From positions 26,071,215 through 26,135,214 of the forward strand of contig CM026554.1 in assembly GCA_015143295.1 (NCBI GenBank): a DNA stretch of 64,000 bases. The letters run 5' to 3'. The stretch's first letter is position 1, and every line of letters starts with the position of its first letter. A program made the position numbers and the translations under genes. This stretch comes from Tetracentron sinense (Eukaryota; Streptophyta; Magnoliopsida; Trochodendrales; Trochodendraceae). Under the pieces are notes generated by a model. That model was not told the DNA's origin, searched no databases, and was given only the letters and a program-made list of their open reading frames with translations. This document shows positions 27,505 through 61,839 of this stretch, in pieces.

Positions 27505-27745
27505 ATGACCGTTCGAACGGTCTTTTGATCATTCGAACGGTTGTTCAATCGTTCGAACGGTTGTTCAATCGTTCGAACGGTTATACCTACTGTTTTTGGT
27601 TTCCGAAATTCTGTTTTAACATTTTTTGGCATCGTTCGAACGGTCATGGAACCATTCAAACAATTTAGCTTACTGTCTTCGAATGTTGATGTTTTATTCA
27701 TCATCCACTGGGATCATTCGAACGGTCAGGGAACCGTTTGAACAG
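27505..27745 (-). promoter_or_regulatory. Array of TTCGAA-centred palindromes upstream of G1 TATA box (3' LTR)
   Basis: Seven regularly placed copies of ACCGTTCGAACGGT or close variants, in three groups. Core TTCGAA positions are 27512, 27532, 27552 and 27572, then 27635 and 27655, then 27717 and 27737 (some variants TTCAAA or TTTGAA). Within each group the spacing is exactly 20 bp. The copy nearest the TATA box ends about 62 bp from it. Confidence 0.8.
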
Positions 27746-27972
27746 TTGACCCAATTTTCTTCTATTTTTCACATTTTCTCATTTTCTTTCTTCTTTACGT
27801 AGACCTTTACACCTTTTAACATCACCAAGGGTCCTTAAGATCTTAGCACAAACGCCATAGCTCATTTTTAAACATACACAACATTATCCTAAATCATACA
27901 ACCCAAACCATGCATACATTGAACCCTTTTTGGCTTTAAAACACCTTTCATAGCGCTATTCACCACATGGTG

Positions 27973-28367
27973 AAGCTAATGATGTAGCTGATTTTTTGGC
28001 TAATCATGGGTGCTATTCAATGGATCATCAATATTTTACTACTTTGAATAGCATTCCAAGGAAAGCTAAAACTTTGATATATTTGGATAAAATAGGGATA
28101 GGAAACTTTAGGAAAATTCTTAGGGGTTAGGTCTTGTGCTTTCTTCTGTTTCTTTGTAGGGGTAAGGTTTTATGTCCCCCCCTTTTTTAGTGTCTCTTGC
28201 CCCCCCCCCCCCCCCCCCCCCCCCCTATTTGGTGTCCTTGTAGGAGTTAGGCTTTTTGTTTCTCCCTATTTGGTGTATTTGTAGGGGTAAGGTTTTATGT
28301 CCTCCCCATTTCTTTTGGGTCAGCCAAACCCCCCACTCCTTCTGAGTGGCTTTAAAAAAAAAAAAAA
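27973..28367 (+). mobile_element. LINE 3' tail inserted in G1 LTR, with a 26 bp poly-C run
   Basis: It opens with the last codons of a LINE RNase H (EANDVADFLANHGCY), then about 60 more codons' worth of decayed sequence, a 3' region made of three related GTGT..GTAGGGGTAAGGTTTTATGTCC units, and poly(A) at 28354-28367. C occurs 26 times in a row at 28200-28225. No target duplication is evident. Confidence 0.75.
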
Positions 28368-28390
28368 CTCAGGATTTCCGGGGTTCTTCA

Positions 28391-30235: not shown

Positions 30236-30924
30236 TGTCATGCCCCAAAATACCTCCTAGGAGTTATGATACTTTGGTAACGTGACTTATACTTCAAACC
30301 ATCCTGCAAAGAGTATACAAGGTATGCCAAATAGTGAACCTGAAAATTTCTTCTATATAATACTTCTTCCAAGTGTTAACATAGACAAAAGACTAAATAA
30401 ATAATACAACATATACAAAAAGTTCAACACCTGAGTTACTAACTCAAGCCTACATGAAAATCCCCAAAACAAAATCCCAAGATACATGTCTCTCTCACTC
30501 AACTCAACCATGAGGCCACATTGCAAGACCCCTCACATCTGGATGATAATCCCGAGCAAGTTCCTGCTCTCTATGAACCTCCTCGACCCATGGCTCCGGA
30601 ACACGACCAACCAACCTGGAACACTACCGAAATAATAGTTCGGTTGAGTATTGAATACTCAGTGTATGCATACTACTAACAAACCATGTTACAATACATT
30701 AATATGCCATGCGGAGTACAGTTCATCATCACATATACATAATCAGAGTGCGGAAGTTAAGACAAAATAACAAATGTAAAATCTCGAACATCATACTTTA
30801 AGTTCATGCTTTAACCAACACATATTTCAATTACCTTGTGAGTCTTGTGAGTTCCTTATGCATCTTATGAGTCTTGTGAGTTCCTTATACGTCTTATGGG
30901 ATTCTTTATTTCACTTATCTTATT

Positions 30925-31252
30925 TAGCTAGCACCCGAACTATGAAATGGACCGTCATGTTTAGCGTTTTTCATTTTCACTAATTAGTACCCGAATTATG
31001 AATGGACGGACATATTAGCATCTTGTCTTGTATTAACTAGTACCCGAACTATGAAATGGACGGACATACTAGCATCTTGTCTTGTATTAACTAGTACCCG
31101 AACTATGAAATGGACAGACATATTAGCATCTTGTCTTGTATTAACTAATACCCGAACTATGAAATAGACGGACATACTAGCATCTTGTCTTGTATTAACT
31201 AGTACCCGAACTATGAAATAGACGGACATACTAACATCTTGTCTTTCTTATC
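30925..31252 (-). repeat. 54 bp tandem repeat in G1 5' LTR (about 6 copies)
   Basis: Successive near-identical units containing ACCCGAACTATGAAATGGAC and CATCTTGTCTTGTATTAACT. Because 54 is divisible by three it opens a repetitive frame (VRVLVNTRQDA-type units) on the minus strand. I treat that frame as a by-product of the repeat. Confidence 0.85.
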
Positions 31253-32183
31253 GTACTTGAAATCTTATTCTTGTCTCGTGGAAATCACTCTTGTCTTGTC
31301 TTGATTTAATTTCATATGATCGTACTTAAAAAACTCGATTCTTGCATACATGCTTGTGCATGGTGATTTGTGAACATGAATGTGACATGGAGATAATTAA
31401 ATAATAACATATGACATTCAAGTATTTCTGTAGGCATGAGAGATCTTAAAGGAAGCATATATATAGGCATTATAGCAATTTGACATTTGTGGAAGAGACT
31501 TTAAATCGTGCTTTCATAGACTTAGGTTTAGATCTCATATATTCATTTTATCAAACACATGACATTCAACATTTCTATAGGCATTTAGCTCATATTTTCA
31601 TAATCAAACATTTCATCAAACACCTTGAGTGCATGTTTTGTGTGTACATTGCCCTTCACCATTTACCATCATACAACCATCACATTCTCCATGGTATCAA
31701 TTTCGCCTTAACCAATCCATACATTTCATACCATTCATATCCATATTAATTAGTATAAACATATTAAGCTACACATCTTAATATCATCTCAATATGGTTT
31801 ACATCTTGATTTTCACAAAAGGATCACTAAAATAGAATACATATCAATGGATTATAGCAAAGGAGAGAATGTATCTACATTGAGAATGCTTGAAAACTCT
31901 TGTGGAAGTGAAATTCAAGCTTCAAGTGGTGAGATCCATGCTTGGGGAAGAAGATCCAAGCTTTGAGGAAGGAGATCCAAATCTTGAGGAAGATTTGGGT
32001 TGCACCTTGATCTCCAATGAAAAACCCCTTTTTAAACCCTAGCTCTTCTCCCTTCTCCTTCCAAAATTTCCCTTAGGTTTAGATCAATCCCAAAACCCTC
32101 AAATGTTCTCCTATTTATAACCCAAGAGGTAGAAATCCTAAAAATCCCGCATTTGGGGTTTTTTCGTAACTTACTGGGCATGA

Positions 32184-32402
32184 CCGTTCGAATGGTCGTT
32201 TGATTGTTTGAACGGTTGTTCAATCGTTCGAACAGTTATGCCTACTTTTTTTGGTTTCCAAAATTCTGTTTCAACATTTTTTGGCATCGTTCGAACCGTC
32301 ATGGAACCGTTCGAACAGTTTAGCTTACCGTCTTCGAATGTTGATGTTTTATTCATCATCCACTAGGATCGTTCGAATGGTCTAAGAACCTTTCGAACGG
32401 TT
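32184..32402 (-). promoter_or_regulatory. Array of TTCGAA-centred palindromes upstream of G1 TATA box (5' LTR)
   Basis: Same array as in the 3' LTR, with some copies mutated (GTTTGAACGG, GTTCGAACAG). The roughly 20 bp spacing is kept between neighbours. Confidence 0.78.
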
Positions 32403-32799
32403 GACCCAATTTTCTTCTATTTTTCACATTTTCTCATTTTCTTTCTCCTTTACTTAGACCTTTACACCTTTTAACATCACCAAGGGTTCTTAAGACCTTA
32501 GCACACACGCCATAGCTCATTTTTAAACATACACCACATTATCCTAAATCATACAACCCAAAACATACATTGAATCCTTTTTGGCTTTAAAACACCTTTC
32601 ATAGCACTATTCACTGCACGGTGGACTCGGATTTCCAGGGTTTTACATAAGCTGTATCAAGGCTACTCATGAGTTAAGAACTAGAAGTGTGGATGATGCA
32701 AATAGAGGCCCGATCCCCATCAAATACAAGGCATGTAAGGTTTAAGAATTTAATACTACTTAATTGCCTTTAAGGAAGGGACTAATGAAGATAACTGAT

Positions 32800-35745: not shown

Positions 35746-36499
35746 ACTTTCGGAGACTGTTTTCATCTATGATTATCTTTTTGGAATGGTTAGTTTATGC
35801 TATGGCATGGATGAAAAAGGGTCTGAGACTTGGTGTATAATGTATGAAAGGGATGAGATTGTGTGTGGATGGAGCAGAGGGGCATAGCCCTTAGTTTCGG
35901 GCTGTTACATCTCAAAATTTAGGCTCGTATTGGATGGGAGATCGATCATCAGCATGCAAAAGCCTGGGTGATCAATCGCCAGTGCGCAGGTTTGGGGATT
36001 TAGGTCCCTGATGTGCTCGGATCCTCCAGGAAGCCCGATTTTGGATTCATTGTGTGATGTGATAATGTTTGAATGTTTATAGGGTGATGAATGGATCCAA
36101 CGACTAGGATATGTTCTCTATCAGAACAACCTTGTGTGATGTGATGATAATGGGGGACTGATATGGCGATGAAAGGATTCATCGACTGGATAATGTTCTA
36201 CACCGGAGCGGTATACTCTCGGACTTGGTCCAGGGCGTGATGTCCAATTGATTCAATTATTCAAGCGAGACTTGGATTAATTGGGGATTTTCTACGGTTA
36301 GAAAATCTAACCTATGTTGGATGTTAGTGAAGGTTGCTCCGTGACTAATAATTGGGAGTGGGTGGAATAATATCCATTGATCATCTTTGGTGAGGTATGT
36401 GACTGATAGTCAGGAATGGATGAAATAATATCCATGGATCCTTTTTGACTAGGTACGTGACTGATCGTTGGGAGTGGGTGGAGTGTTATCCATAGATCC

Positions 36500-40116: not shown

Positions 40117-40325
40117 TGTAGAGCCCCAGAATTTTTCATGCTTAATGCAGGGCACTTTCGTAGCCAATTTGCCTTTAATGTAGTACAATTAATAAATAAG
40201 GAAGAAATTGAAAATTTCGAAACATCAGAAATGTTCCTTTTCGAAGTACGAACCCAATGCAAGTTGAATCGTCAAAATCCAACGAACAAGTCAAAAGATA
40301 TGGCCAAAACAGTTTCGACCTGCAG

Positions 40326-40515
40326 ACCACCGATCACTCGGTCCATTGTAGCGATCGATTGGTCCACAACCGATCGATCGAAGGCTATTGACTGGTGCAC
40401 ATTTTTGTATGGGGAAATTTTCCAGAGAGCATGTTTTTGACCGGTCGCTCGGTCAAGAACACCGATCGCTCGGTAGGCAACCGATCGATCAGTCATAACC
40501 ACCGATCGCTCGGTC
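40326..40515 (+). promoter_or_regulatory. Array of ACCGATCGCTCGGT palindromes upstream of G2 TATA-like box
   Basis: Seven variants of ACCGATCGNTCGGT. Core positions are 40334, 40355 and 40374, then 40445, 40466, 40485 and 40506, spaced 19-21 bp within groups. The last copy ends about 63 bp before TATTAA. The same array recurs in the 3' LTR (about 47769-47957). Confidence 0.82.
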
Positions 40516-41456
40516 CCCCGTGTTTTGCAGAAATTTCAGTAAGGGTATTTTCATCTTTTGGGCGTTTCACTCTTGCCTATTAAGGCTTGCCCGAGCCTTT
40601 AGGGCTTCATTCACACACTTAGAGTATTTTGAGAGATAGAAAGAGAGGAGAAAGGGTTCTAAACCTAGGGTTTTGTTTTGAGGAGGAATCAAAGGGTTGA
40701 AGACCCACAATCATCCTCAAGCTCGTTTTCCTTCAAGATCAAGGCTCAAGCTCGTGAGGAGTACTTTTCCCAAGCTAGGGCAGCGACTCACACACGTTTT
40801 GCAAGGGGTTTTTTCTTCTATACAAGGTCGGTACCTTTTGCTACCCTTCTAGTTATAGCTTTCCCTTTTCTTTCCCTATTTCCTTATTCTTCATCATCTA
40901 TAAATGTGCTATGAGTTGGGATGTGTGAATGGGGTGAATAGAGATGGATGTTGGCGATTGGATGCCGTGTGGAATGATGTGATGAATGAAATGGGGAGGG
41001 CATTGTATCCATAATAAACATACATGTGTGAGGTGAACATCAACCCGCCTAGAAAGGCATGATGTAGTTTAAATAAATAATGAACACGCTCCATGTTTGA
41101 TGAAATGCCAAGGTGAATACAAATGGGTTGTAAATTAAGAAATTGCATGCTTAATAAACTATGGAAATTCCTAGGGCCTATGATAGTGTGTTTCCTTGTT
41201 TTACCTAAATTGCATGAATATTAACTTGCTCAAATTATCGATGTTATATGTATTGTGAATTACCCAAATGTCATGTTAAATTTCCAAATGCAAGTATGTA
41301 CACGATTCCACGAGCACGGCATGCATGACATGTTTTATCGAGGTTTTCCAAGAACGAGAATTAGAGGTGGGACATGTCCTACGATATGTTTTACCTTGCT
41401 TTTGACAAGAACAAGACATGCATTCATAAAGAAGGGTTTCCCTTCCCTCGCAAGTG

Positions 41457-41692
41457 CATTTAGGAAGAAGGGTCTCTCTTCCCTCACAAGTAGTTTAATT
41501 TCCGAGCAAGCATGATACATGGCATGACAAGCATGAACATTTAGGAAGAAAGGTCTTCCTTCCCTCGCAAGTAGTTTATTTTCCAAGCAAGCAAGATACA
41601 TGACATGGCAAGCATGAGCATTTAGGAAGAAGGGTCTCCCTTTCCTCACAAGTAGTTTATTTTCCAAGCAAGCACGACATGACATGACACGC
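41457..41692 (+). repeat. Three tandem units of about 80 bp in G2 LTR
   Basis: Each unit contains TTTAGGAAGAAGGGTCT, CTTCCCTCACAAGTAGTTTA and TCCAAGCAAGC. GAAGGGT..CCCTTC within the unit is self-complementary. The same array is in the 3' LTR (about 48899-49130), and a related hairpin word occurs in the solo LTR at 50950-51045. Confidence 0.8.
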
Positions 41693-42391
41693 ATGACACG
41701 ACACGATACGACAAGACAAGACAAGATTTCAAACACGCAACAAGTATTTCAAGTCAAGTCAAGTGCACGACTATTTCAAGAGGTTTTATCGGGTTTTCTG
41801 TGATGCAAGCATGAATATAAATTGCCTTACTTCCTTGTTATGATATGAATTGTTTCCCAGCGTTATAATATGAATTGTCATCTACTTTATACATTGCTAT
41901 GATTATGCTATGACTGTTTGGTTAGCATTTGGTACACGCTGAGTATTCCATGCTCAGCCGTACTTTTTATGTCGGCAGGTCCTGAGGGAGCTACTGCTCC
42001 ATTCGATGTCTGTGCTCCGAGCCCTTGGGTGGAGGAGGAGTACGTCGAGGAGCCTATGGAGGAACCTTCGGTAAAGGGCTACTATTAGGTGGTGGTAGAT
42101 TCTGAGTGAGTGAGCTGTGGGTGAGTTGAGAGAGATATATACATGTATTTTGGCGGGCCTGTCCGCATTTTCTTTTGTTTGAACTTGGATCATATATATG
42201 TATATACACATAGAGGTTTTTGGTTAAGTCTTCCGCTGTGTTTTGTTGTATGTTTCCGCTATTATTGTCCTCTATTGTATATGCTCCAAGTGTTTTTGCA
42301 GGATTGTTTGTCAAGCAAGTCATGTAAGTCATGATCAGTCGTCCAAAGTTCACTCTAACTCCTAGAGTGGGTTTCAGGTCGCGACAAGAAG

Positions 42392-42403
42392 TGGTATCAG
42401 AGC
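42392..42403 (+). promoter_or_regulatory. Primer-binding site of G2
   Basis: TGGTATCAGAGC, an exact match to the usual initiator tRNA-Met complement, five bases after the LTR end. Confidence 0.92.
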
Positions 42404-42742
42404 TTAGGCTTTAGGTCTCTAGGGTCACTTAGAATCTAATACCACGGCTTGCCAAGAGCATATGTTAGGAAACAAGTTAGGAAGGAAGTAAGTCGGAAGT
42501 GAGTCATGATCCAAGTGTAAGACTAAACTTTAGTCTTAGTCAAAATGGTTGCTTCAACAAAGTACGAGTCCTAGGAACGCTAGAACACCAAGGTAAAATA
42601 TTATAAATACACCAATGGTTGTGATGCGATGTATATTAGTATTATACAACTAATACAAATTGAATTATTGTGAAATGGAACTGCGATACTTTGCGGTTTC
42701 AAGTTAGACTCATGTGGTGCTATTGTTCTCAGGACTTTTGTC

Positions 42743-43989
42743 ATAAGACGAGGCACACGGGGTCATGGGCCACACACTAGAGCTTCATCTTCTTCACGAG
42801 ATGAGGATGAGCAGCCGGACCTCTCTCAGGTCTTAGGCTCTATTGCTGAGACTCTCGCCATACTGGCGGCTCGGCAGGCTATACCATCATCGGTGGCACC
42901 TACTCCACCGCCCGCAGCTCCAGTACATTGTACAGCTGGAGTTGAGGCATTCAGGAGATTGAGGCCTCCATCCTTCCATGAGAGTGTGGACCCTCTTGCT
43001 GCGGAGGCTTGGATCCTCCAAGTGGAGAAGATATTTACGGTTCTCTCTCCGACAGAGGAAGAGAAAGTAGCATGGGCTGTTTTCATGCTAGAAGGTGAAG
43101 CCCATCATTGGTGGTTGTTCGCATTAAGGACGCGAGATTTGACCATGCAGGGTCAACCTTGGACTTGGGAGGAGTTCAAAGAGACTTTTTATAAGAAGTA
43201 TTTTCTGATTGGAGCACGGGAAAAGAAAGAGAGAATTCATCAACCTAGAGCAAGGTTCGATGATTGTGGCCGCTTATGAGGCTAAGTTCTTGGAGCTTTC
43301 TAGATTTACGACTCATATAGTTGCCACCGAGGCAATGAAGGTGAGAAGGTTTGAGCAAGGGCTCAAGGATGTTATCATGGAGAAGGTTTCAGTTTTCAGA
43401 CATGCTACCTACCCTGAGGTAGTGGACAAGGCCTTATTGGTTGAGGCCAATTCTGAAGTACTGTCCAAGAAGAGGGAATTGACGAGAGGCCAAGCCAGTA
43501 GTTCAGCACCTCCAGAGAGGCGGGCTCGTACCGACCCTTATCAGTATGCGTGGCCAGCACCACCGATGATGCCATCTTATGCGCCTCCAGCTCCACGGCA
43601 GTATGTGCCTCAGGCACCGCGACCTCAGGCTCTTCCGGACCCACGGCCTGTTGCACCTCAGGTAGCGTGGTATGCACCACCTCTGGCCCCTCCGACTTAC
43701 ACATATGAGGTCTGCCCTTCATGCGGCCAAAGGCACCCTGTAGGAGATTGCCGAAGAGCATCGGGTGGATGTTATCATTGCGGTCACCAGGGCCATAGAA
43801 TCAGAGATTGCCCCACTCGGCATTTACCAGGCCAGTCTCAGGGGATTAGGCCCCCAGCACGCCCAACAGGATCATACCAGGCGTCATCTCAGCCTACACG
43901 TTTTGCACCTCCACCTCGCCAGGCGAACCAAGGGTGAGTTTTTGCCTTGACAGAGGGTGATGCACTTGCATCTGACGATGTAGTGCAAG
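42743..43989 (+). pseudogene. G2 gag
   Basis: Homologous to G1 gag from its first residues (RRGTRGHGPH, SQVLGSIAETLAILAARQ). The start codon position reads ATA (42743-42745), not ATG. The retro-gag core (AAEAWILQVEKIF, FMLEGEAHHWW) ends in a frameshift near 43235. The second part (43209-43937) has the Pro-rich linker and zinc knuckle CYHCGHQGHRIRDC. A TGA at 43935-43937 interrupts the run into VFALTEGDALASDDVVQ, which ends at a splice-donor-like GTACGC. Confidence 0.88.
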
Positions 43990-44132
43990 GTACGCAGTTG
44001 TAGTTTATTTAATTATCCTTAAAATCATATTATGCCTTATTCCTTGTGTACGTATGTGGCGTGCTATATATATCTATCTACCTATATATATGATGTTGAT
44101 GCATGGATTGACTTAGCTAGTTAAAATTTCAG
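43990..44132 (+). other. Probable 143 bp GT-AG intron between G2 gag and protease
   Basis: Starts GTACGCAG and ends AAAATTTCAG, is AT-rich with stops in all frames, and separates two coding parts. Removing it joins CAAG to GAACCTTA and restores a Gly codon, so the frame flows from the gag tail into the protease (TLLVNECLARVLIDTGST). The GT/AG borders, AT bias and exact phase support splicing; no transcript was examined. Confidence 0.62.
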
Positions 44133-45934
44133 GAACCTTACTAGTCAATGAGTGTTTGGCTCGAGTGTTGATTGATACCGGGTCTACTCATTCGTTTGTC
44201 TCGCCGAGTTTTTCAGAAGGCTTTTCTGTGGAGCCTAGTCAGCTAGAACAGGAGTTGGCCATTTCGACTCCTCTTGGCAAAACAGTATTGGCAGATAAAG
44301 TGTATAGAAACAGTGTGGTTCAAGTGGGGAGCCACGAGTTGGTGGTTGATCTAATTGTTCTCAAATTTCAAGACTTTGATGTTATATTGGGAATGGATTG
44401 GTTAGCAGCGCATCATGGGCATGTAGCTTGCTTTGAGAAAATGGTACTCTTTAAGCCAGTAGAAGGAAAACCATTTCACTTTCGAGGGTTGAAAAGTAGA
44501 GGTATTGCTCGCTTTGCGGCGTTGAGTTTAGCGAACCCTGAGGCAAAGGACTCTTCGACTATTCCGGTCGTGAGTGAATTCCTGGATGTATTTCTAGAGG
44601 AGTTGCTAGGATTGCCTCCAGACAGGGATATTGAGTTTGTGATCGAGCTTGCACCAGGCACAGCTCCCATTTTCAGGGCTCCGTATAGAATGACCCCTAT
44701 TGAACTAAAGGAGTTCAAGACTCAGTTGGAGGAATTGTAAGGCCTTGGTTTTATTCGACCAAGTGTCTCACCGTGGGGTGCCCCGGTGTTATTTGTTAAG
44801 AAGAAAGATGGCTTGATGCGGATGTGCGTCGATTATCGGCAATTGAACAAAGTCGTTATAAAGAATAGGTACCCATTGCCTAGGATTGATGACTTGTTCG
44901 ATCAGTTGAAGGGAGCAAAATTATTCTCTAAGATAGATCTTCGATCGGGCTATCACCAGTTGAAGATTAAGGCGGAATATATTCCCAAAACTGCTTTCCG
45001 GACTCGATACGGACACTACGAGTTCTTGGTGATGCCTTTCGGTCTCACGAACACGCCGGTAGCCTTTATGGATTTGATGAACCGGGTGTTCCAGCTATGT
45101 CTTGATCGATGTGTGATCGTGTTTATCGATGACATCTTGATATATTCCCAAACACGGGAAGATCACATGTGAGACCTTCGTCTTGCTTTGGGAATGCTGA
45201 GAGAGCACAAGCTATATGCCAAACTCAGTGAGTGTGAGTTTTGGTTGGAAAAGGTGGCATTCCTAGGCCACGTCGTTTCTGTGGAAGGCATTTTGGTGGA
45301 TCCGAAGAAGATAGAGGCAGTCATGAGTTGGGCAAGGACCAAGAGTATTACAGAGATACGTAGTTTCCTTGGGTTGGCAGGCTACTACAGGAGATTTGTA
45401 GACGGTTTTTCTAGCCTTGCTGCACCACTCACTTACCTGACAAGGAAGAATGCCAAGTTCGTATGGAGTGATAAGTGCGAGATCAGTTTCACGGAACTGA
45501 AGAAGAAGCTTACCACAGCCCCTGTCCTTACACTGCCATCCGGACATATTGGGTATGAGGTGTATAGTGATGCTTCACATGTCGGACTTGGGTGTGTGCT
45601 CATGCAACACAAGAAAGTCATTGCCTATGCATCCAGGCAATTGAATGAGCATGAAAAGAATTACCCCACGCATGACTTGGAACTTGCCGCAGTCGTGTTT
45701 GCGCTTAAGATTTGATGACATTACTTGTACGGGGTAGAATTCTATGTGTATACCGATCACAAGAGCCTCAAGTACCTCTTTTCCCAAAAGGAATTGAATT
45801 TAAGGCAATGACGTTGGATGGAATTTTTGAAAGACTATGACTGCCCCATCCAATACCTCCCGAGCAAAGCAAACATTGTAGCGGACGCCTTGAGTAGAAG
45901 ACCTCTGGGTTTGTTGGCTCACATGTTGGTGTAA
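44133..45934 (+). pseudogene. G2 pol: protease, reverse transcriptase, RNase H
   Basis: Protease has LIDTGSTHSFV. RT shows [48 protein letters not shown] and the catalytic [10 protein letters not shown]. The RNase H part has [60 protein letters not shown] and ADALSRRP. Stops interrupt at 44738 (TAA), 45170 (TGA), 45713 and 45716 (two TGA), 45809 (TGA) and 45932 (TAA). Each can be derived by one transition from an Arg, Gln or Trp codon at these conserved places. Confidence 0.92.
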
Positions 45935-47469
45935 GGATGGAAGCTATTGGAAGATTTGACAAATCTGGACATCAGTGTGAATGATTCCGTCCACAGTCCT
46001 GTTTTGGCAAATGTCACGGTTCGGCCGTACGTTATAGATTTGATCCAAGAATATCAAGCCACGGATGCAGAACTGTTGGCTTTCCGGGACAAGGAAGTTG
46101 CCAGGGGTAGTGAGGACTTCTGTTTCACTAGCCGAGGTGCTATCACATTCAAGGGAAGGCTTTGTGTTCCGGCCAATGCAGATCTTCGACGAGAGATTAT
46201 GGATGAAGCCCATCGGGCAAAGTACACGGTGCATCCAGGGGGTACAAAGATGTACCGGAACCTCAAGAGTCACTTTTGGTGGCGGAATATGAAGAGGGAT
46301 GTTGCAGAATATGTGGCACGGTGTTTGGTGTGCCAGCAGGTGAAAGTAGAGCACATGCGGCCCGCAGGTCTATTACAATCTCTTCCTATTCTCGAGTGGA
46401 AATGGGAGAACATCTCTATGGACTTCATAGTTGGCTTACCAAAGACGGCAAGGAACTCAGATGCGATTTGGGTTGTGGTGGACCGTTTGACAAAGTCAGC
46501 GCACTTCTTGCCCTACCGGACCACGTTCAATTCTAGCCAGTTGGCCGCTCTGTACATCAAGGAAGTGGTTAGGCTACACGGGGTGCCAGTCAGTATTGTG
46601 TCAGATCGGGATCCAAGATTCACATCAAGATTCTGGAAGAGTTTTCAGGATGCAATGGGTTCCCGACTTGACTTCAGCACCGTATTTCATCCACAGACGG
46701 ATGGACAAACCGAGAGGGTGAACCAAGTCATCGAAGACATGCTTCGAGCTTGTATGCTGGATTTCAAAGGCAGTTCGAAAGAGCACTTGCTTTTGGTTGA
46801 ATTTGCCTATAACAATAGCTACCAGGCGAGTATCCAAATGACACCTTTTGAGGCCTTATATGGGCGAAGCTGCAGGTCTCCTCTCTATTGGGATGAGGTA
46901 AGAGAGAGGAAGGTGTTGGGTCCGGAGTTGATCAAGCAAACTGCTAGTATAGTCAGGATCATCCGAAATCGGTTGAAAGCCGCTCAAGATCGTCAAAAGA
47001 GCTATGCAGACACGCACTGTAGGGACTTAGAATTCCAGGTTGGGGATCAAGTCTTTGTGAAGGTATCTCCTAGCAAAGGAGTTATGAGATTTGGCAGGCG
47101 AGGCAAACTTAGTCCTCGATATGTTGGTCCATTCGAGATCATCACGCGAGTTGGTGAAGTTGCTTACAGGGTAGCTCTTCCACCTCACATGGCCACGGTT
47201 CACAACGTTTTCCATATGTCTATGCTTCAGAAGTACATTGCGGACCTTTCGCATGTTATAGACTTGGAACCGTTGGAAATTCGAGAGGATCTCACTTTAG
47301 TTGAGAGGCAGGTCCATATATTGGATCGGAGAGATCAAGTCCTTCGCAACAAAACGATTCTGGTGGTTCTCGTGCAGTGGCAACATCAAGCTCGAGAAGA
47401 GGCTACGTAGGAGCGAGAGGCCGAAGTCAAAGCGAAGTACCCAGAATTGTTTGAAAGAGTTTTTGTATA
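45935..47469 (+). pseudogene. G2 pol: integrase and C-terminal chromodomain-like tail
   Basis: A 487-codon open stretch (45947-47410). It shows the HHCC zinc finger (HRAKYTVHPGGTKMYRNLK, then CLVCQQVK), the DDE core (MDFIVGLPKT, VVDRLTKSAHF, SIVSDRDPRFTSRFW, THPQTDGQ-type FHPQTDGQTERVNQ), the GPF motif region (SPRYVGPFEI) and a chromodomain-like tail. A TAG at 47408 falls where a conserved Trp is usual in these tails; the frame then continues to 47469. Confidence 0.92.
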
Positions 47470-47545
47470 GGTTTTGTATATGACTTGTAATTTTGTTTTG
47501 GTTTGTAATGCAAGTATCGTCTAAATTTCGAGGACGAAATTTTTG

Positions 47546-47558
47546 TAAGGGGGGAGGA
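47546..47558 (+). promoter_or_regulatory. Polypurine tract of G2
   Basis: TAAGGGGGGAGGA directly before the 3' LTR start TGTAGAGCC, the priming site for plus-strand DNA. Confidence 0.88.
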
Positions 47559-49839
47559 TGTAGAGCCCCGGACTTTTTCATGCTTAATGCAGGGCACTTT
47601 TGTAGCTAATTTTCCTTTAATGTAGTACAATTAATAAATAAGGAAGAAATTGAAATTTTTGAAATGTCAGAAATGTTCCTTTTCGAAGTACGAACCCAAC
47701 ATAAGTTGAATCGTCAAAATCAAACAAACAAGTCAAAAGATATAGCCAAAACAGTTTCGACCTGCAGACCACCGATCGCTCGGTCCATTGTAGCGATCAA
47801 TCGGTCCACAACCGATCGATTGAAGGCTATCGACTGGTGCACTTTTTTGTATGGAGAAATTTTCCAGAGAGCATGTTTTTGACCGGTCGCTTGGTCAAGA
47901 ACACCGATCGCTCGGTACGCAACCGATCGATTGGTCATAACCACCGATCGCTCGGTCCCCTATGTTTTGCAGAAATTTTAATAAGGGTATTTTCATCTTT
48001 TGGGCGTTTCACTCTTGTCTATTAAGGCTTGCCTGAGCCTTTAGGGCTTCATTCACACACTTAGAGTATTTTGAGAGATAGAAAGAGAGGAGAAAGGGTT
48101 CTAAACCTAGGGTTTTGTTTTGAGGAGGAATCAAAGGGTTGAAGACCCACAATCATCCTCAAGCTCGTTTCCTTCAAGATCAAGGCTCAAGCTCGTGAGG
48201 AGTACTTTTCCCAAGCTAGGGCAGCGACTCACACACGTTTTGCAAGAGGTTTTTTCTTCTATACAAGGTCGGTACTTTTTGCTACCCTCCTAGTTATAGC
48301 TTTTCCTTTTCTTTCCCTATTTCCTTGTTCTTCATCATCTATAAATGTGCTATATGAGTTGGGATGTGTGAATGGGGTGAATGGAGATGGATGTTGGCGA
48401 TTGGATGCCGTGTGGAATGATGTGATGAATGAAATGGGGAGGGCATTGTATCCATAATAAACATACATGTGTGAGGCGAACATCAACCCACCTAGAAAGG
48501 CATGATGTAGGTTAAATAAATAATGAACACGCTCCATGTTTGATGAAATGCCAAGGTGAATACAAATGGGTTGTAAATTAAGAAATTGCATGCTTAATAA
48601 ACTATGGAAATTCCTAGGGCCTATGATAGTGTGTTTCCTTGTTTTACTTAAATTGCATGAATATTAACTTGCTCAAATTATCGATGTTATATGTATTGTT
48701 AATTACCCAAATGTCATGTTAAATTTCCAAATGCAAGTATGTACACGATTCCACGAGCACGGCATGCATGACATGTTTTATCGAGGTTTTCCAAGGATGA
48801 GAATTAGAGGTGGGACATGTCCTACGATATGTTTTACCTCGCTTTTGACAAGAACAAGACATCCATTCATAAAGAAGGGTTTCCCTTCCCTCGCAAGTGC
48901 ATTTAGGAAGAAGGGTCCGCCTTCCCTCACAAGTAGTTTACTTTCCGAGCAAGCATGATACATGGCATGACAAGCATGAACATTTAGGAAGAAGGGTCTT
49001 CCTTCCCTCGCAAGTAGTTTATTTTCCAAGCAAGCAAGATACATGGCATGGCAAGCATGAGCATTTTGGAAGGAGGGTCTCCCTTCCCTCACAAGTAGTT
49101 TATTTTCCAAGCAAGCACGACATGACATGACACACATGACACGACACGATACGACAAGACAAGACAGACAAGACAAGATTTCAAACACGCAACAAGTATT
49201 TCAAGTCAAGTCAAGTGCACCACTATTTCAAGAGGTTTTTTCGGGTTTTCTGTGATGCAAGCATGAATATAAATTGTTTTACTTTCTTGTTATGATATGA
49301 ATTGTTTCCCCGCATTATAATATGAATTGTCCTCTGCTTTATACATTGCTATAGTTATGCTATGACTGTTTGGTTAGCATTTGGTACACGCTGAGTATTC
49401 CATGCTCAGCCGTACTTTTTATGTCGGCAGGTCCTGAGGGAGCTACTGCTCCATTCGATGTCTGTGCTCTGAGCCCTTGGGTGGAGGAGGAGTACGTCAA
49501 GGAGCCTATGGAGGAACCTCCAGTAGAGGGCTACTATTAGGTGGTGGTAGATTCTGAGTGAGTGAGCTGTGGGTGAGTTGAAAGAGATATATACATGTAT
49601 TTTGGCGGGCCTGTCCGCACTTTCTTTTGTATGAACTTGGATCATATATATGTATATACACATAGAGGTGTTTGGTTAAGTCTTCCCGCTGTGTTTTGTT
49701 GTATGTTTCCGCTATTATTATCCTCTATTGTATATGCTCCAAGTGTTTTTGCAGGATTGTTTGTCAAGCAAGTCATGTAAGTCATGATCAGTCGTCCAAT
49801 GTTCACTTTAACTCATAGGGTGGGTTTCGGGTCGCGACA
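47559..49839 (+). repeat. 3' LTR of G2
   Basis: 2,281 bp, collinear with the 5' LTR, with scattered substitutions and small indels (for example a GACAGACAAG addition near 49160). Ends GGTCGCGACA followed by the CATAT duplication. Confidence 0.93.
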
Positions 49840-49844
49840 CATAT

Positions 49845-50184: not shown

Positions 50185-51964
50185 AGATATGTCGCGACCC
50201 AAAACCCACCCTAGGAGTTAGAGTGAACTTTGGACGACTAATCATGGATTACATGACTTACTTGACAAACCAACCTGCAAAAACCCACAGAGCATATACA
50301 ATAGAGGATATAAACAGCGGAAACATACTCTAACATAGCACAGTGGAAGATTAACAAACCTCTATGTATATACATACTTAAATCCAAGTTTACACAATAA
50401 GGAATCCATAAGAAAGTGCGGACATGCCCGCCAAAATACATAAATCTAACTCTCATCTCACCCACAGCTAATCCACTCAGAATCTAACACCACCTACTGA
50501 TAACCCTCTACGGGAGGTTCCTCCAAAGGCTCCTCGACGTACTCCTCCTCCACCCATGGACCAGGAGCACAAACATCAAATGGAGCAGCAGCTCCCTCAT
50601 AACCTGCCGACATAAGAAGTACGGCTGAGCATAGAATACTCAGCGGGTACTAAATACTAACCAACAATTATAGCATAACAATGGCAATGCATAATCAAGA
50701 GCAATTCATATATGTCAGGCAGAAACAATTCATATCATACAGGGAAGTAAAGCAATTTATAATCATGCTTGTATTTCGTAGAAAGCCGATAAAACCTCTT
50801 GAAAACATCGGTACTTGAAAGCTTGTCTTGTTTGTCTTGCTTGATTCTTGTATATTGTGTCTTGTCATGCATGTCATGCGTGCTTGCTTGTGATCATGTA
50901 ACCTGTGAGATGCACTTGTGAGATGTACTTGTGAGATGCGCTTGTGAGATGCCTTGAGAGGGAAGGGAGACCCTTCTTTATGCAATGCACTTGAGAGGGA
51001 AGGGAGACCCTTCTTCATGTTATGCACTTGTGAGTGAAGGGAGACCCCTCATGTAATGTTGGTTCTTGTCTTCTTGTGAAAAGCGAGGTAAAACATATCA
51101 TAGGATATGTCCCACCTCTAACCATGTTCTTGAAAACCTCGATAAATCATGTCATGCATGCCGTGCTCGTGGGAACCGTGTACATACTTGCATTCAAATT
51201 TAAAAATGACATTTGGGAAATTTCACAACACATATAGCATCAAAGATTGAGCAATGTAATATTCGTAGCATTTTTTTTTTGGAAAGCAGGCAACACACTA
51301 TCATGGGCCCTAGCAATATTCAGAATTTATTAGGCATGCACTTACTAATTTACAGCTCACTTTATTCACCTTGGCATTTCATCAAACATGGTGTGTTCAT
51401 TATGGATTTACCCTACAACATGCTTTTCTAGATGGATTTTACTCAAATCATACATGTATATTCATTATTGGAACAATGCCCTTCCCCATTTGTTCATCAC
51501 ACAACCATTGGCATCCAATCGCCCATTCCATCTCCATTCACATTCACCATTTACCATTCATCCATCTCATAGCACATGTGAAAATGAAAGAAAATAAAGA
51601 GAAAAGAAGGGGAAAGAGGAACTATAACTAGGAGGGTAGTAAGAAGTACCGACCTTGAAGAGATGAGGAAGAAATCCCTCTTCCAAACGACTGTAAGTTG
51701 CTGTCCTAGCTTGGAACACGAGCTTCGCACGAGCTTGGGCCGAGATCTTGAAGAAAAACCGGATTGGGAGTGATCTAGGGTCTCAAAACCCTTTGATTTC
51801 TCTCCAAACTGGAAACCCTAGGTTTAGGAATCGCCTTCTCCTCTCTTCTTATCTCCCAATCTCTCTAAGTGTCGAATGATGCCCTAAAGGTTCGGGTTAA
51901 ACTCTTAAGGTAAGAGTGAACTGACAAAAGACCATAATACCCTTACTAAATTTCTGTAAAAACA

Positions 51965-52195
51965 CGAGTGCCGAACTCGTTGTGCTGTGAACAGTGCCAA
52001 CTCGTTGTGCTGTGAACAGTGCCAACTCGTTGTGCTGTGAATAGCACCAACTCGTTGTGCTGTGAATAGTGCCAACTCGTTGTGCTGTGTGAACAGTGCC
52101 AACTCGTTGTGCAGTGAATAGTGCCAACTCGTTGTGCTGTGTGAAGGGTGCCGAGCCCGTTGTTACGTTGTGTCATGCATAGTGCTGAACTCGTA
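51965..52195 (-). repeat. 25 bp tandem array in the solo LTR cassette
   Basis: At least seven copies of GCCAACTCGTTGTGCTGTGA plus AYAGT, with small insertions (GTGTGAACAGT) and two decayed copies at the right. The unit contains the self-complementary word CTGTGAACAG. Confidence 0.87.
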
Positions 52196-52327
52196 GTCCG
52201 TTGTCTTATGTACAACGTGCCCATTGTGCAGTACAACGTACACGTCGTCTGCTGCAAGACGTAACCGTTGTCTGTTGCACAACGCACCCGTTGTCTGTGC
52301 ATTGTCTGTGCCTTATCAGAGCACGTT

Positions 52328-52506
52328 GCCCAAGCTACGTCCTTAGTGCATAACCGAGCTACGTCCTTAGCGCATAACCGAGCTACGTCCTTAGCGCATA
52401 ACCGAGCTACGTCCTTAGGGCATAACCGAGCTACGTTCTTAGCGCATAACTGAGCTATGTCCTTAGCGCATAACCGAGCTACGTCCTTAGCGCCTTCCGA
52501 GCTACG
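52328..52506 (-). repeat. 24 bp tandem array in the solo LTR cassette
   Basis: About eight copies of GAGCTACGTCCTTAGCGCAT plus AACC, in strict 24 bp register, with point changes. Between the two arrays (52196-52327) are scattered GTTGT and ACAACG words in both orientations. Confidence 0.87.
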
Positions 52507-52726
52507 ATTGCCTGTAGGTCCAGACTGTTTTGGCCATATCTCTTGACTCGTTCATCCGATTTTGACGATTCAACTTGCGTTGTGTTCGTACTTCAAAAAG
52601 GAACATTTTTGACATTTCAAAATTTTGAAATTCTTCCTTATTTATTAATTTTACCTCTTAAAAAGGCAAAATGACAACGATAGTGTCATGTATTAACTGT
52701 AAAAAGGTCCGGGGCTCTACAAGATA

Positions 52727-55481: not shown

Positions 55482-55510
55482 TAATGGCGGTAGATAGTCT
55501 ACCGCCATTA
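55482..55510. repeat. Perfect hairpin with 13 bp arms
   Basis: TAATGGCGGTAGA, 3 bp loop, then its exact complement. Related imperfect hairpins are at about 55674-55706, 56338-56370, 56385-56417 and 56489-56516. Confidence 0.85.
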
Positions 55511-56629: not shown

Positions 56630-56885
56630 TAGGGCTGACCTAGGGTTTACTTAGGGTTAGGCTAGGGTTTACCTAGGGTTAGGCCTAGGGTTTGAGTTTG
56701 AACTAGGGTTAGGCCTAGGGTTCAATCAGGGTTTGCCTAGGGTTTAGGGCTTGACTAGGGTTAGGCCTAGGGTTTGATCAGGGTTTGCCTAGGGTTTAGG
56801 GCTTGACTAGGGTTAGGCCTAGGGTTTGACCAGGATTTACCTAGGGTTAGTCTAGGGTTTTACCTAGAATTAGGATTTGATTGGT
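56630..56885 (+). repeat. Telomere-like CTAGGGTTT array inside the 54451-56959 LTR
   Basis: Many copies of TAGGGTTT, TAGGGTTAGG and CCTAGGGTTT with a longer duplicated period (GGCCTAGGGTTTGATCAGGG near 56765). The unit resembles the plant telomere repeat but is irregular. Confidence 0.8.
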
Positions 56886-57353
56886 ACTCAGTTGGGGATA
56901 ACCATGGTTTAAAGATACTAACCATGGTTAAGGCAGGTGGTAAAAATTAGGTGCTTACATTACTCATACCCAAATCTCAACATTCATGTTTAAAAATCTA
57001 GGTTTAGGATCTACGTCATCACTAAATCAACTAGTAAGGTGTACTTACTCGGCAAAGCCAAATTTTGACTTGAAAGATGGCTTGGACATGAACTTAAGCT
57101 AGAGGGTGAAGATCCACGCTCGAGAAGAAGATCCAAGCTTGAGGAAGCTTTCGAAGCAAGGATCAAGCTCCTCCTTTGATCTCACACGAAACTCCCTTTT
57201 TAGAACCCTAGGTTTTCTCCCTTTTCCTCTCAAAATGTTTCTCTCTAAGTGTTAGAACCCTTAACCCCTCAAAATTTGGATATTTATAGAGTTAGGGTAG
57301 TTAAAAATTGAAAATACCCTTCATGCGTAACTATTCACGATTTTTGCGTGTTG

Positions 57354-57484
57354 GACTCGTCGATGAGTTTGAGTGCCCCCTTTGCATTTGTCGACAAGTT
57401 CAACACCAGAACACTCTGTCATCAAAACTCCAACCAAGTCGTCGACGAATTTTCAAGTCCCAGATGGACTCGTTGACGACTGGA
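57354..57484 (-). promoter_or_regulatory. TCGA-centred palindromes upstream of the L3 TATA box
   Basis: Four variants of ACTCGTCGACGAGT with cores at 57360, 57391, 57442 and 57473 (steps of 31, 51 and 31 bp). The nearest copy lies about 66 bp from the TATA box. Confidence 0.78.
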
Positions 57485-57830
57485 ACCCGATTTTGCCTAT
57501 TTTGCTAATTTTTCACATTCTATCCTACTTAGGACCTTTTCCCTATTATTTTCAAGGACTTTGCTATTGATACCCCCTTAGGTCCAAGACCACCGAGACC
57601 GTGCTCTAAGAACACGAGATTTCAGGTAGGGCCATTTCACATCAGAAGCTTTATCCTATTTTCAACACCTATAAACACCAAATGACAATTCGTTTAAGGT
57701 TTTAAAACATCCATCACACTACGTTTCATTTCAAAATATAAAATCATAATTACATCAAGGCTTTTTGGCCCTTTTTACAAGAACTATTGACACGAACAAT
57801 GAATCCAAGTTTCTGGGGTTCTACAGTACA

Positions 57831-59471
57831 ACCTTGAGTCCTTAGACTCAGCACACAACCAACAACATGTACCATCTCATGACATACTTAAATACAGTGA
57901 TTTCCGTTCCTCAACCTGTCTTAGGACATACCTAAGTACAATGATCCCCATTCTTCAACCTGTCTTGGGGCATACCTCCCTCAAAGTCTTGTTGGAACAT
58001 ATTGAAGTATAGAGGTCCCCACCCCTCAAAGTATTGTTGGAACATACCAAAGTAAATAAGTCACCATCCTTTATGGTAAAACATCATATTCAATCTTTAT
58101 CAGGGCATACCTGGGTACAAGGTCACCACCCTCACGGGACATACTTGGATACAAAGATCACCACCCTATTAGGATATTCGTCACACCCAACAAAGCTCTA
58201 TTAAGACATACTTAAGTACAATGGTCCCTACTCCTCAACCTATCTTGGGACATACCTAAGTACAATGATCCCCGTTGCTCAACCTGTCTTGGGACACACC
58301 TCCATCAAAGTCTTGTTGGAATATATCGAAGTACATAGGTCCCCACCCCTCAAAGTATTGCTGGAACATACCGAAGTACAGAGGTCACCACCCCTCAAGC
58401 CAACATTCATTTATCCAACCTCTATTGGGACATATTAGCCACTATAGATCACCACCCCTCAAGGCAACATTCATTTATCCAACCTCTACTGAGACATACC
58501 TGCCACTACAAATCCATCCCTCAAGGAAAACTTCTATAGGGACATACCTACTATATAAAGGTCACCATCCCCACGGGACATACCTACTATACAAAGGTCA
58601 CCACCCCGCAAGTCAACATACGAATCACTTGGCCTTCACCCAATAGGGGACATCGCCCATAGTCCATTGACTCGATACAACCTTGGGTCCATAGACCCGA
58701 TGCCATCCTAACTCTCCCGACTATCAGTCACAGAGGAACCTCGGATCTTAGTAGACCCACCTATCCAGACCAAGTCAAAGAGGGACCACGGATAGCTTTT
58801 AACTCAGGTTAGATTTTCCAACCGTAAGAAATTCCTAATTATATCAAGCTTTGCTTGAATAATTGAATCCATTGGGCATCGTGGAGAAATTTTAATAGTG
58901 TACCGTTCCGATGGGGAACATTATCTGATCTAATGGATCCATCCATCGCCTTATAAGTTCCCAATAATCAATATCTCATACAAGAGTTGTTTTGATAGGG
59001 AACTTATCCGGGCCGATGGATCCGTCCATTGCCTCTAACAAATTTCAATAATGCCACCTCATCCAAGGTCGTTCCGATAGGGAACATATCTTAGGCGATG
59101 GATCCGTTCATCGCCTCTAACAAGTTGAAATAATCATTTCGTCAACCAAGGGTGACATCATAACACACCAAGGATCCAAACCGGGCTTCCCGAAGGGTCC
59201 GAACACAATCGGGGTCCAAATCCCCAAACCCTGCGTGCTAGCGATCAATCACCAGTGTTGGGTGATCGATCGCCCAGGCTTCTATATGTTGGCGATCGAT
59301 CGCCCAGACAGTGGATCAAATGCCTATCCTCTGCCAAGCCTACATTTCAAGTTTTTCAGCCCGAAACCGAGGGCTACAGCCCTCTACTCGATTACAATCC
59401 ATTCCTATCCATTCCATACACATAATACCAGGTCTTCGACCATTTTTCATCCACTCCATACACAATCGAAC
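57831..59471 (-). repeat. L2- LTR, right piece
   Basis: Resumes after the second GTACA with CCTTGAGTCCTTAGACTC and continues the inverted L2 sequence. It includes the array at 57880-58620 and GGCGATCGATCGCC palindromes at 59241-59310 (cores 59245, 59266 and 59296). It stops at 59471, where L3+ begins; the rest of L2- (counterpart of 34032-35800) is absent. Confidence 0.76.
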
Positions 59472-61839
59472 TGTAGAACCCCAGATCTTGATGACATGGT
59501 ATTGTGAATAGTACTGTGAATAGTGTTGAGGCATTGAAGCCTTCATGTGTTCCTTGAGTGTCATTAATGAAGAAGAAGGTTTTCGAACATGATTTGGGTA
59601 TCTAATGTGTTGTGTCATGTGTGAGAGTCTTAGAGTATTCTTTTATGTTCATGGGTGTTAAAAACAAAGTAGGAAAGGAGTCTAAATGAGAAAAATAGGA
59701 AAGCAGCAAAACAGGGAAAATCAGTGCCCACTCGTCGATGAGTCCATTCCACTCATTTACAAGTCATTGAAACATTGAGTTGGGAAAATTCCAGAAGCCC
59801 CACTCATCGACAAATACTGTTGGAAGACCCAAACTCATGAGTCCACTCATCGACGAATGGAACCCACTCGTCGACGAGTCAAATGCGCAGAAATCGGGAA
59901 TAGTTACATGTGAAGGGTATTTTCGAGTTTTGGCAACCCTAACTCTATAAATACCCAAATTTTGAGGGGTTAAGGGTTCTAACAGTTAGAAAGAAACATT
60001 TTGAGAGGAAAAGGGAGAAAACCTAGGGTTCCAAAAGGGGGTTTCTTGTGAGATCATAAGAGGAGCTCGATCCTTGCTTCCAAAGCTTCCTCAAGCTGGA
60101 TCTTCTTCCTTGAGCGTAGATCTTCTTTCTCAAGCTCAGATTTCGTGTTCAAGGCATTTCTCAAGCTAAGAGTTGATCTTTAAAAAGTAAATACATTCTC
60201 CTATCTAGCTTTATTATAATCCAAGTCTTGAAATGTGGGTTTTAAATGGGGATTTCTCAAGAATAATAGTAAATACTTCTACTTGTTCGTTTTGTTATAA
60301 TTGTATAAGTAAATACACCTACTCTCTAGCTTTGTTATTGATTAAACCTAGAAATGAGGGAGAAATGTTTGGCATTTTCATTTAGATGGGGAAAAAAGTC
60401 TTCTATGCTTGATTTGGTGGGGTTTTTCCTTAAAGAAATTATGATTCTAAGTAAATAGGCATAGTAGCTATGATTATTGTGATTCCATTGCTATGAATGA
60501 TGTTCTATGATGGGGTTTTTCCATAACAAAATTATGATTCTAAGTAAATAGGCATAGTAGCTATGATTATTGTGATTCCATTGCTATGAATGATGTTCTA
60601 TGACCATGCTTGAATGTTTAAGGGTTTCCTATGCTTACTATGATGCTCATAAATTGTATATGATTATGGTTAAGGGTTCTACGTATATTCTAATGCTCCT
60701 ATGATTTTATCTAAGCATGTATTAAATGTTTAAAGATTTCCAAGTATATTATGATGCTCACAATTATCTTATGCTCACTATGCTTTGCACTATCGAGGAT
60801 TTCTCATAAGTATGGGTATCTGACATTCATGAACTCATAAGCTATAATAAGAATTAATAAGCTATAGCTCACAAGCTCAAAAGCATTGATAAATCCAAAC
60901 GTTGGGTTGGTCAAGGATAGGGCATATCCAAGGATATGTCATATCTAGCTCAAAGAAAATCTCATAAGTTGATAAAGCCAAACTGAGGGTTGGTTAAGGA
61001 TGATGGCACGCCTCTTCTATGTACCTTCATTGAAAGACATTTACATGCCCAGCTCATAAGTCTCTAAAGGGGTGCTATCATTTGGCTCATAAGGATCTCA
61101 AAAGTTTCAAAAGTCTCATAAGCTCATAAGGATCTCATAAGCTCATAAGTCTTATAAGCAAAGATCTCGAAAGAACTCATAAGTGATTCTCATAAGCTCA
61201 AAGATCTCATAAGAACCTTGATTCACACAAGAACTCAAAAGATTCATAAGTTACGGTTTCTCACAAGACTCATAAGTTTGATTTTTAATGAAATCTCATA
61301 AGATTATATTTTTGGAAAATTATGCATATTTCTAAGTTAAGATGGATATATGGATTCCGTCCTTTGCTCTATGATTTTGATGAATTGTTGCATGTTAATG
61401 TTTCATGACATTGTTAGATAGTAGCTTGTATCACGCTAAGTATTTCATGCTCAATCGTACATGTTTATGTCAGCAGGTCCATTTGATATTTGTACTCCCG
61501 GTTCATGGATCGAGAGGACTATTGTGAGGAGGAGCCGAAAGAGTTTCAGTCAGAAGAGGATAGAAACCTGGATAGGTGGCCTTATCCTGGATACTACTGA
61601 GCGAGAGTGAGGGAGTGATAGTATTTTGTTGTTTTGTTAAAGTGGGCATGTCCACTTCATACTTTTGTCATGTACAGTTTTGTTGTAACTTGGAATATTG
61701 TTGATATATATAAAAGAAATTTTGGTTCACGCTTCCGCTATATTAGTTGCCTTGTTTATTTATATAGGATGGTATGATATGATGTACAGTCACGCTTAAA
61801 GTCTCTTTTAACTCCTAGGTAGGATTTTGGGTCTCAACA
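59472..61839 (+). repeat. L3+ LTR, plus orientation
   Basis: TGTAGAACCCC to TTGGGTCTCAACA, 2,368 bp, inverted relative to 53128-57825. TCGA palindromes lie at 59729-59880, with the last copy ending about 65 bp before the TATA box (CTATAAATA, 59945). A duplication of about 107 bp covers 60418-60620; CTCATAAG octamers fill 60830-61300. Flanking pentamers CGAAC and GAGTT do not match, so an end was probably rearranged. Confidence 0.75.

Follow-up and report, generated by a model that had tools for sequence, protein, structure and literature searches.

In a 64,000-nucleotide stretch of the Tetracentron sinense genome (contig CM026554.1, positions 26,071,215 to 26,135,214; hereafter the window), which is crowded with nested plant-type long terminal repeat (LTR) retrotransposons, clusters of 14-bp near-palindromes sit in the U3 part of the LTRs of three families, G1, G2 and L3, with 4–8 copies per LTR. 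We propose that these clusters occupy a replaceable enhancer slot, in which phased 14-bp sites for dimeric host proteins would provide the LTR promoter with its upstream activating element, and we put the probability of this reading at about 0.6. Its observed basis consists of the words themselves, their confinement to 14 bp, their position, their spacing, and the difference between G2 and its sister family G3.

According to this proposal, each array is a row of 14-bp sites that a dimeric host DNA-binding protein would bind, every site having a TCGA or TCGC centre between two inverted 5-bp arms. With sites about whole helical turns apart, the bound dimers would share one face of the DNA. The TATA-like box lies about seven turns from the proximal site (70.5–73.5 bp, measured from the dyad centre), and the bound array would activate the promoter. 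The slot would be modular: the core promoter and flanks would be inherited, while the array would be replaced or re-worded between families, a changed word presumably meaning a changed host protein.

Near-palindromic words in the U3 region

We counted as a copy any match with at most 4 mismatches to the family word. By this rule, the two LTRs of G1 (G1a and G1b) carry 8 and 7 copies, those of G2 (G2a and G2b) 7 each, and L3a and L3b 4 and 5, respectively. The initial annotation of this stretch had described 14-bp palindromes or near-palindromes with a TCGA centre, present in several copies per family. This holds for near-matches, and near-palindromic 14-mers are indeed found in all three families, but it does not hold for the exact words or for the centre of G2: ACCGTTCGAACGGT occurs once (27508), ACTCGTCGACGAGT once (59866) and ACCGATCGATCGGT never, and the five exact occurrences of ACCGATCGNTCGGT all carry C at N and are thus centred on TCGC, the commonest centre in G2. 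The words take the form ACCG..CGGT (CCG-CGG order) or ACTCG..CGAGT.

To quantify enrichment, we defined a near-palindrome as a 14-mer that pairs at no fewer than 6 of 7 positions and used 1000 dinucleotide shuffles per slot, and 300 per whole LTR, as controls. TCGA-centred near-palindromes number 4 and 3 in the G1 slots (shuffle means 0.06 and 0.05) and 3 and 2 in the L3 slots (0.02 and 0.02), counts that 0 of 1000 shuffles reached in each case. The excess over shuffled controls that had been anticipated is therefore present within the window for G1 and L3; it is weak for G2, whose slots hold 1 and 1, reached in 32 and 37 of 1000 slot shuffles and in 38 and 34 of 300 whole-LTR shuffles. When the centre is left free, the G2 slots are enriched: they hold 3 and 6 near-palindromes versus about 0.3 in the shuffles, and 0 of 1000 reached these counts. 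The 561-bp slot of G3 contains 0 near-palindromes; its whole LTR has 8 of any centre versus 3.5 expected, a number reached by 10 of 300 shuffles. When the six palindrome slots and L4a, an array introduced below, were masked, 180 any-centre near-palindromes were left in the window, 1 of them TCGA-centred.

TCGA was rejected as an essential feature, given that TCGC is the commonest centre in G2 and that such words are absent from G3. Nor does one motif fit all families, as AACGG/CCGTT and CCG-N6-CGG are each confined to some slots.

The conserved footprint and its probable decay

A fourth word family, L4, which the initial annotation had overlooked, comes from two related segments (L4a and L4b) rather than from recognized LTRs, and no TATA box was recognized near them. 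Across the four families, mean information content is 1.52–1.63 bits per base within the 14 bp, whereas the 12 bp to each side score 0.32–0.81; the G1 flanks score high in part because neighbouring copies lie 20 bp away. The consensus pairs at 7 of 7 positions in L3 and at 6 of 7 in G1, G2 and L4.

These data bear on neutral tandem-repeat turnover, by which U3 repeats would arise and decay through slippage and their palindromy and spacing would mean nothing. Such turnover would account for the non-palindromic repeats that fill the same slot in G3 and for the part of the G1 array that is a plain 20-bp tandem repeat. We nevertheless consider it distinctly unlikely, since the sequence between copies is more diverged than the 14 bp themselves, all four word families are near-palindromic at the consensus level (though they were chosen for that), and repetition of a 20-bp unit does not give spacings of 31, 51 and 71.

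Transitions at CpG dinucleotides make up 37 of the 75 changes from the perfect word (G1 13/25, G2 7/23, L3 11/18, L4 6/9), so the disorder of the words is likely in part the decay of methylated CGs, and the words were likely once more uniform. The CGs could themselves be the reason for which the words are kept, as symmetrical targets clustered into a small CpG island through which methylation is controlled or avoided. Consistent with this, the perfect word holds three CGs, and the observed/expected CpG ratio is 1.05–1.93 in the G1, G2, L3 and L4a slots (each <240 bp, GC 0.40–0.54) versus 0.56 for the window. However, CpG is raised in all eight slots, including that of G3 (1.10), which lacks the words; the frequent transitions, which affect 37 of the 258 CpG bases in the four families combined, suggest methylated, decaying CGs; and arm bases beyond the CGs are conserved as well. 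We thus regard this explanation as very unlikely.

Spacing between copies and helical phase

Adjacent copies are spaced by 20, 62, 20, 63, 20, 20 and 20 bp in G1a; by 20, 62, 20, 63, 20 and 20 bp in G1b, which has one 20-bp unit fewer; by 21, 19, 71, 21, 19 and 21 bp in G2a; by 31, 51 and 31 bp in L3a; by 21, 51, 43 and 21 bp in L3b; and by 21 and 30 bp in L4a. We examined their phase with the 22 adjacent spacings of G1a, G2a, L3a, L3b and L4a, excluding G1b, G2b and L4b as repeats of values. The best common period within 10–11 bp was 10.3 bp, with a mean cosine of 0.88, and when periods of 6–24 bp were scanned the peak fell at the same value. When only distinct spacings were used, the mean cosine was 0.82, and 0.011% of 100000 random sets were as good; with near-equal spacings merged by hand to 6 values, it was 0.85, reached by 0.26% of random sets. 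Fixing the period at 10.5 bp gave 0.024% (distinct values) and 0.46% (hand-merged values). The phasing also persisted at hit thresholds of 2, 3, 4 and 5 mismatches (null fractions 0.00115, 0.0002, 0.00005 and 0.00005). In G1, G2, L3 and L4, the distances between copies thus fall near whole-number multiples of roughly 10.3 bp, the length of a helical turn. We grade this result as suggestive to moderate, because the spacings had been seen before the test, the null was uniform, and spacings within an array are non-independent.

Position relative to the TATA box and replacement of the array

The cluster had been said to end 62–66 bp upstream of the TATA-like box, and it does: the distance is 63 bases in G1, 63 in G2 and 66 in L3, in both LTRs of each, which corresponds to 70.5 bp (G1 and G2) or 73.5 bp (L3) from the dyad centre to TATA. 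The linkers in between were compared by z scores against single-base shuffles. The G2 linker appears homologous to that of L3 (z 4.5 and 3.1). The fixed position accordingly came, at least in part, by inheritance of the core promoter, and it is not independent evidence in every family. The remaining scores were 12.8 for G2–G3, 3.1 for G3–L3, 2.9 and 1.35 for G1–L3, 0.8 and 2.5 for G1–G2, and −0.6 for G1–G3.

By contrast with its promoter, the array of G2 is not shared with its sister. The G2 and G3 LTRs are 80–82% identical between their first base and the point where the array begins (40325/52512 for G2a, and 12 bp beyond that for G2b). Alignment is regained at 40519/51966, and from there on identity is 75–79%. 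Between these aligned flanks, G2a has 193 bp of palindromes, whereas G3 has 545 bp of unrelated tandem repeats. L3a and L3b align at 84% downstream from the proximal word and at 79% over 43 bp around the distal word, with the rest of U3 unaligned; G1 and L3 align downstream of TATA only, at about 71–78%. Since promoters and flanks can be aligned and the arrays are unrelated, promoter and array have separate histories.

The same comparisons address whether one ancestral word has drifted, in which case the words of G1 and G2, and perhaps L4, would come from one array and their position would simply be inherited. Only positions 5 and 10, a symmetric pair, distinguish the G1 word from that of G2, the inner CGATCGATCG of the L4 word is shared with the TCGA form of G2, and the G2–L3 and, less clearly, G1–L3 similarities described above point the same way. 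On the other hand, the L3 word has no match in the G1, G2 or L4 arrays at up to 4 mismatches, G2 and G3 have a promoter but not an array in common, the G1–G2 linkers score poorly, and a symmetric two-base change still wants a reason. Drift is possible, although we would wager against it. The earlier statement that the words do not derive from one shared sequence accordingly stands for L3, and is weakened for G1 and G2 by the closeness of their words and by the apparent homology of the G2 and L3 linkers.

The palindromes might also act in the transcript: the genomic RNA carries a copy of U3 at its 3′ end, where hairpins could feed small-RNA production or RNA pairing. Array RNAs do fold better than dinucleotide shuffles in eight slots including that of G3 (z −2.4 to −7.0; 60 shuffles each, 20 for G3), and the best 110-nt window lies below −40 kcal/mol, the miRNA-like cut-off used in PMC10760457, in four of the eight (G2a, G2b, G3 and L4a); across the entire window of 64,000 nucleotides, 76 of 6390 such windows do so. 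The non-palindromic G3 slot, however, folds equally well relative to its shuffles (z −4.8), so folding fails to single out the palindromes, and the best 110-nt window of L3b is ordinary (−27.4 kcal/mol; 15% of windows are lower). Moreover, a hairpin source predicts neither helical spacing nor a fixed distance to TATA, and maize Ty3 elements are generally without a peak of such structures according to the available text of PMC10760457. This makes the hairpin explanation unlikely.

Weighing the enhancer-slot reading

The dimeric transcription-factor platform, one of the functions initially suggested, fits best because the conserved footprint equals the dyad and the spacing follows the helical repeat; the replaceable enhancer slot retains this element, with binding as its conditional part. 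Several observations weigh against it. The phase test was post hoc with a uniform null, and the spacings of an array in part go back to a single duplication event. At 59833–59842, the shortened palindrome ACTCATGAGT, which the hit rule does not capture, is not in phase with its neighbour. When alternative 14-mers from the slots (the top five words per slot) served as query, hits could be gained or lost and the mean cosine fell in places, to 0.62 (G1a), 0.42 and 0.63 (G2a) and 0.39 (L3b). One-sided changes recur, G13A in 9 of 15 G1 copies and A9C in 8 of 14 G2 copies, so the copies descend from slightly asymmetric units and symmetry is not strictly imposed. The G3 slot lacks palindromes, and its tandem units are out of phase. 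Finally, in the segment at 54451–56959 described below, three of five inverted repeats precede a putative TATA (minus strand) at off-phase spacings of 101 and 47 bp. The notion of a fixed template common to these LTRs was therefore too strong, as G3 lacks the words, L4 has them away from a recognized promoter, and 54451–56959 carries other palindromes.

A broader formulation would be that the Ty3/gypsy LTR promoters here combine an inherited core with an exchangeable upstream slot that ends 63–66 bases before TATA, holds a different dyad word in most families and keeps rotational register with TATA, such that families switch host regulator by changing the word and conserve helix-face geometry rather than sequence. 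We consider it rather unlikely to hold in this full form; assignment to Ty3/gypsy by coding sequence concerns G2, as L3, G3 and L4 are without an identified coding part. If phasing and replacement hold genome-wide, LTR families could be sorted by the host regulator that they use, and the means by which related retrotransposons evade common control could be addressed by promoter swaps.

Elements and other repeats in the window

The features are collected in Table 1. G2 spans 40117–49839 with CATAT on either side (40112–40116 and 49840–49844). It is a Ty3/gypsy element, because its domains follow the order gag, protease, reverse transcriptase (RT), RNase H and integrase between two LTRs and the best solved relative of its integrase piece is yeast Ty3. 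In a check for a chromodomain, the last 118 residues matched only SH3_Tf2-1 and, under its cut-off, Integrase_p58_C, and the frame ends soon after. The integrase piece gave 4 pattern matches in viral contigs (a collection without plant genomes), none confirmed as a relative, and three array patterns gave 0 matches each in the same collection.

G1 retains a short internal part, of which two pieces had no Pfam match; one of these, gag-like, is 48% identical to the G2 gag over 82 residues. The element is flanked by 5-bp TAAAC at the G1a side and TAAGC at the opposite end. Relative to G1b, G1a is interrupted at about 27964–28376 by an insertion, with a long C run near 28200. A tandem repeat of about 54 bp containing ACTAGTACCCGAACTATGAAATGGACGG, at 30914–31245, has more copies in G1b than in G1a.

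Table 1 Features of the window
Feature	Positions	Strand	Description	Basis
G1a LTR	25722..28390	-	3′ LTR of element G1; upstream end approximate	self-BLAST versus G1b 90–93%; sequence
G1a TATA box	27437..27444	-	TATAAATA, 63 bases from proximal word	
G1a array	27508..27746	-	8 copies of ACCGTTCGAACG(A/G)T	
G1b LTR	30236..32647	-	5′ LTR of element G1	self-comparison, sequence
G1b TATA box	32112..32119	-	TATAAATA, 63 bases from proximal word	
G1b array	32183..32401	-	7 copies	
L4b	35937..35980	-	2 copies of L4 word, spacing 30, in segment related to that of L4a	
G2a LTR	40117..42386	+	5′ LTR of element G2	self-comparison
G2a array	40329..40514	+	7 copies of ACCGATCG(C/A)TCGGT-like words	
G2a TATA-like	40578..40585	+	TATTAAGG (weak), 63 bases from proximal word	
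G2 internal coding	42674..47410	+	gag, protease, RT, RNase H, integrase	separate reading-frame pieces split by stops
G2b LTR	47559..49839	+	3′ LTR of element G2	self-comparison
G2b array	47771..47956	+	7 copies, spacings as G2a	
G2b TATA-like	48020..48027	+	TATTAAGG (weak), 63 bases from proximal word	
G3	50190..52721	-	solo LTR, sister of G2, flanks AGATA/AGATA	self-comparison
G3 slot	51967..52511	-	23- to 25-bp tandem repeats instead of palindromes	
L3a	57040..57825	-	U3/R part of LTR, remainder interrupted	sequence comparison
L3a TATA box	57281..57288	-	TATAAATA, 66 bases from proximal word	
L3a array	57355..57481	-	4 copies of ACTCGTCGACGAGT-like words	
L4a	59240..59304	+	3 copies of GGCGATCGATCGCC-like TCGA-centred words, spacings 21, 30	
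L3b	59472..61839	+	LTR	sequence comparison
L3b array	59730..59879	+	5 copies; copy at 59751 weak (4 mismatches)	
L3b TATA box	59946..59953	+	TATAAATA, 66 bases from proximal word	

Downstream of L3b, a 308-residue frame at 62376–63302 has an RVT_3 (RNase H-like) domain, unlike the gag expected past a 5′ LTR. Beside a segment related to that preceding L3b, a 182-bp unit occurs in four tandem copies (34986–35706). Nested in L3a is a solo-LTR-like segment (54451–56959; TG..CA, flanks CTACT/TTACT) that holds five AATGGCGGTA-N7-TACCGCCATT inverted repeats with 0–2 mismatches and several AACCATGGTT palindromes; within it, 56641–56848 contains repeats rich in CCTAGGGTTT, similar to telomere-like words.

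Comparison with known systems

G2 and G3 are close relatives with alignable flanks and unrelated arrays, as expected of a modular U3. A comparable case is Tnt1, which belongs to Ty1/copia. The Tnt1 superfamily is described as showing modular U3 evolution, relatives differing mainly in U3 and the remainder being conserved, as in G2/G3 (available text of PMC1838419). It differs in that no palindromes are reported: 'palindrom', 'tandem' and 'inverted' have 0 occurrences in the main text of that paper.

Two kinds of host-factor site bear a partial likeness to the words. The centre of the G1 word, TTCGAA, resembles the CHR-type motif of DREAM complexes. AACGG/CCGTT also occurs in the G1 arms, with 8 and 4 instances in the G1a and G1b slots, respectively, versus 0.14 expected per 200 bp at the window rate, and AACGG is given as the core of the MSA element and MYB3R sites (PMC8964727, available text). 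This motif is absent from the G2, L3 and L4a slots and occurs 4 times in the 545-bp G3 slot; MSA/MYB3R therefore cannot explain the shared form. The G2 slots hold 4 and 3 sites of the form CCG-N6-CGG, a spacing that we assume to be associated with LOB-domain (LBD) factors, and this likeness is a lead only. Dimeric LBD factors are described as using a 'molecular calipers' mechanism to discriminate palindromic DNA (PMC10118128, citing other work), the sole pertinent passage that a literature search on these factors yielded. The binding sequence in the available text of that paper is GCGGCG, however, and CCG-N6-CGG occurs once in the G1a slot and not in those of G1b or L3.

The closest parallel is provided by the Sireviruses, which also show that the initial annotation, in knowing of no description of this fixed template, was wrong as to the kind: palindromic multi-copy words before TATA were published in 2010 (PMC2829016, Bousios et al. 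2010, BMC Genomics 11:89). According to the available text of that paper, RM boxes are palindromic repeated words in the LTRs of 13 elements, lying upstream of TATA, mostly forming CpG islands, with words that vary between elements (though OPIE-2 and PREM-2 have one in common); there are 3–14 per 3′ LTR and at least 8 per element. Two of the published words are TCGA-centred, CGGTCGACCG of Vitis and ACAATCGATTGT of Tnd-1. Cis-regulatory regions of several element families are likewise described as arrays of sometimes palindromic repeats, and a small-RNA excess at Sirevirus palindromes is attributed to earlier work (Bousios 2016), both in the available text of PMC10760457. The nested segment at 54451–56959 may be a Sirevirus LTR, as its inverted repeats share the half-site GCGGTA/TACCGC with the RM published for Inga.

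The arrays described here resemble RM boxes as multi-copy, CpG-rich, mostly near-palindromic words (4–8 copies in G1, G2 and L3) that vary by element and cluster shortly upstream of TATA (63–66 bases). They differ in carrier and core. The RM motif was termed Sirevirus-specific after a comparison of Ty1/copia elements, whereas G2 is Ty3/gypsy; and in place of the CGG-CCG core, which Tnd-1 also lacks (PMC2829016, available text), G2 arms read CCG-CGG, in reverse order, and L3 has neither. The helical spacing present in our arrays has no mention for RM boxes in that text. A literature search by titles and abstract beginnings, with most subscription papers outside its reach, found neither phased TCGA palindromes described for Ty3/gypsy LTRs nor array replacement described between sister families, and a full-text search for the family words returned only unrelated matches as judged by titles and abstract beginnings. 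What is new is thus the Ty3/gypsy setting (for G2), the phasing, and the replacement of the array between sister families, the kind of cassette being already known. If phasing and replacement hold genome-wide, the pattern known from Ty1/copia Sireviruses would extend to Ty3/gypsy elements.

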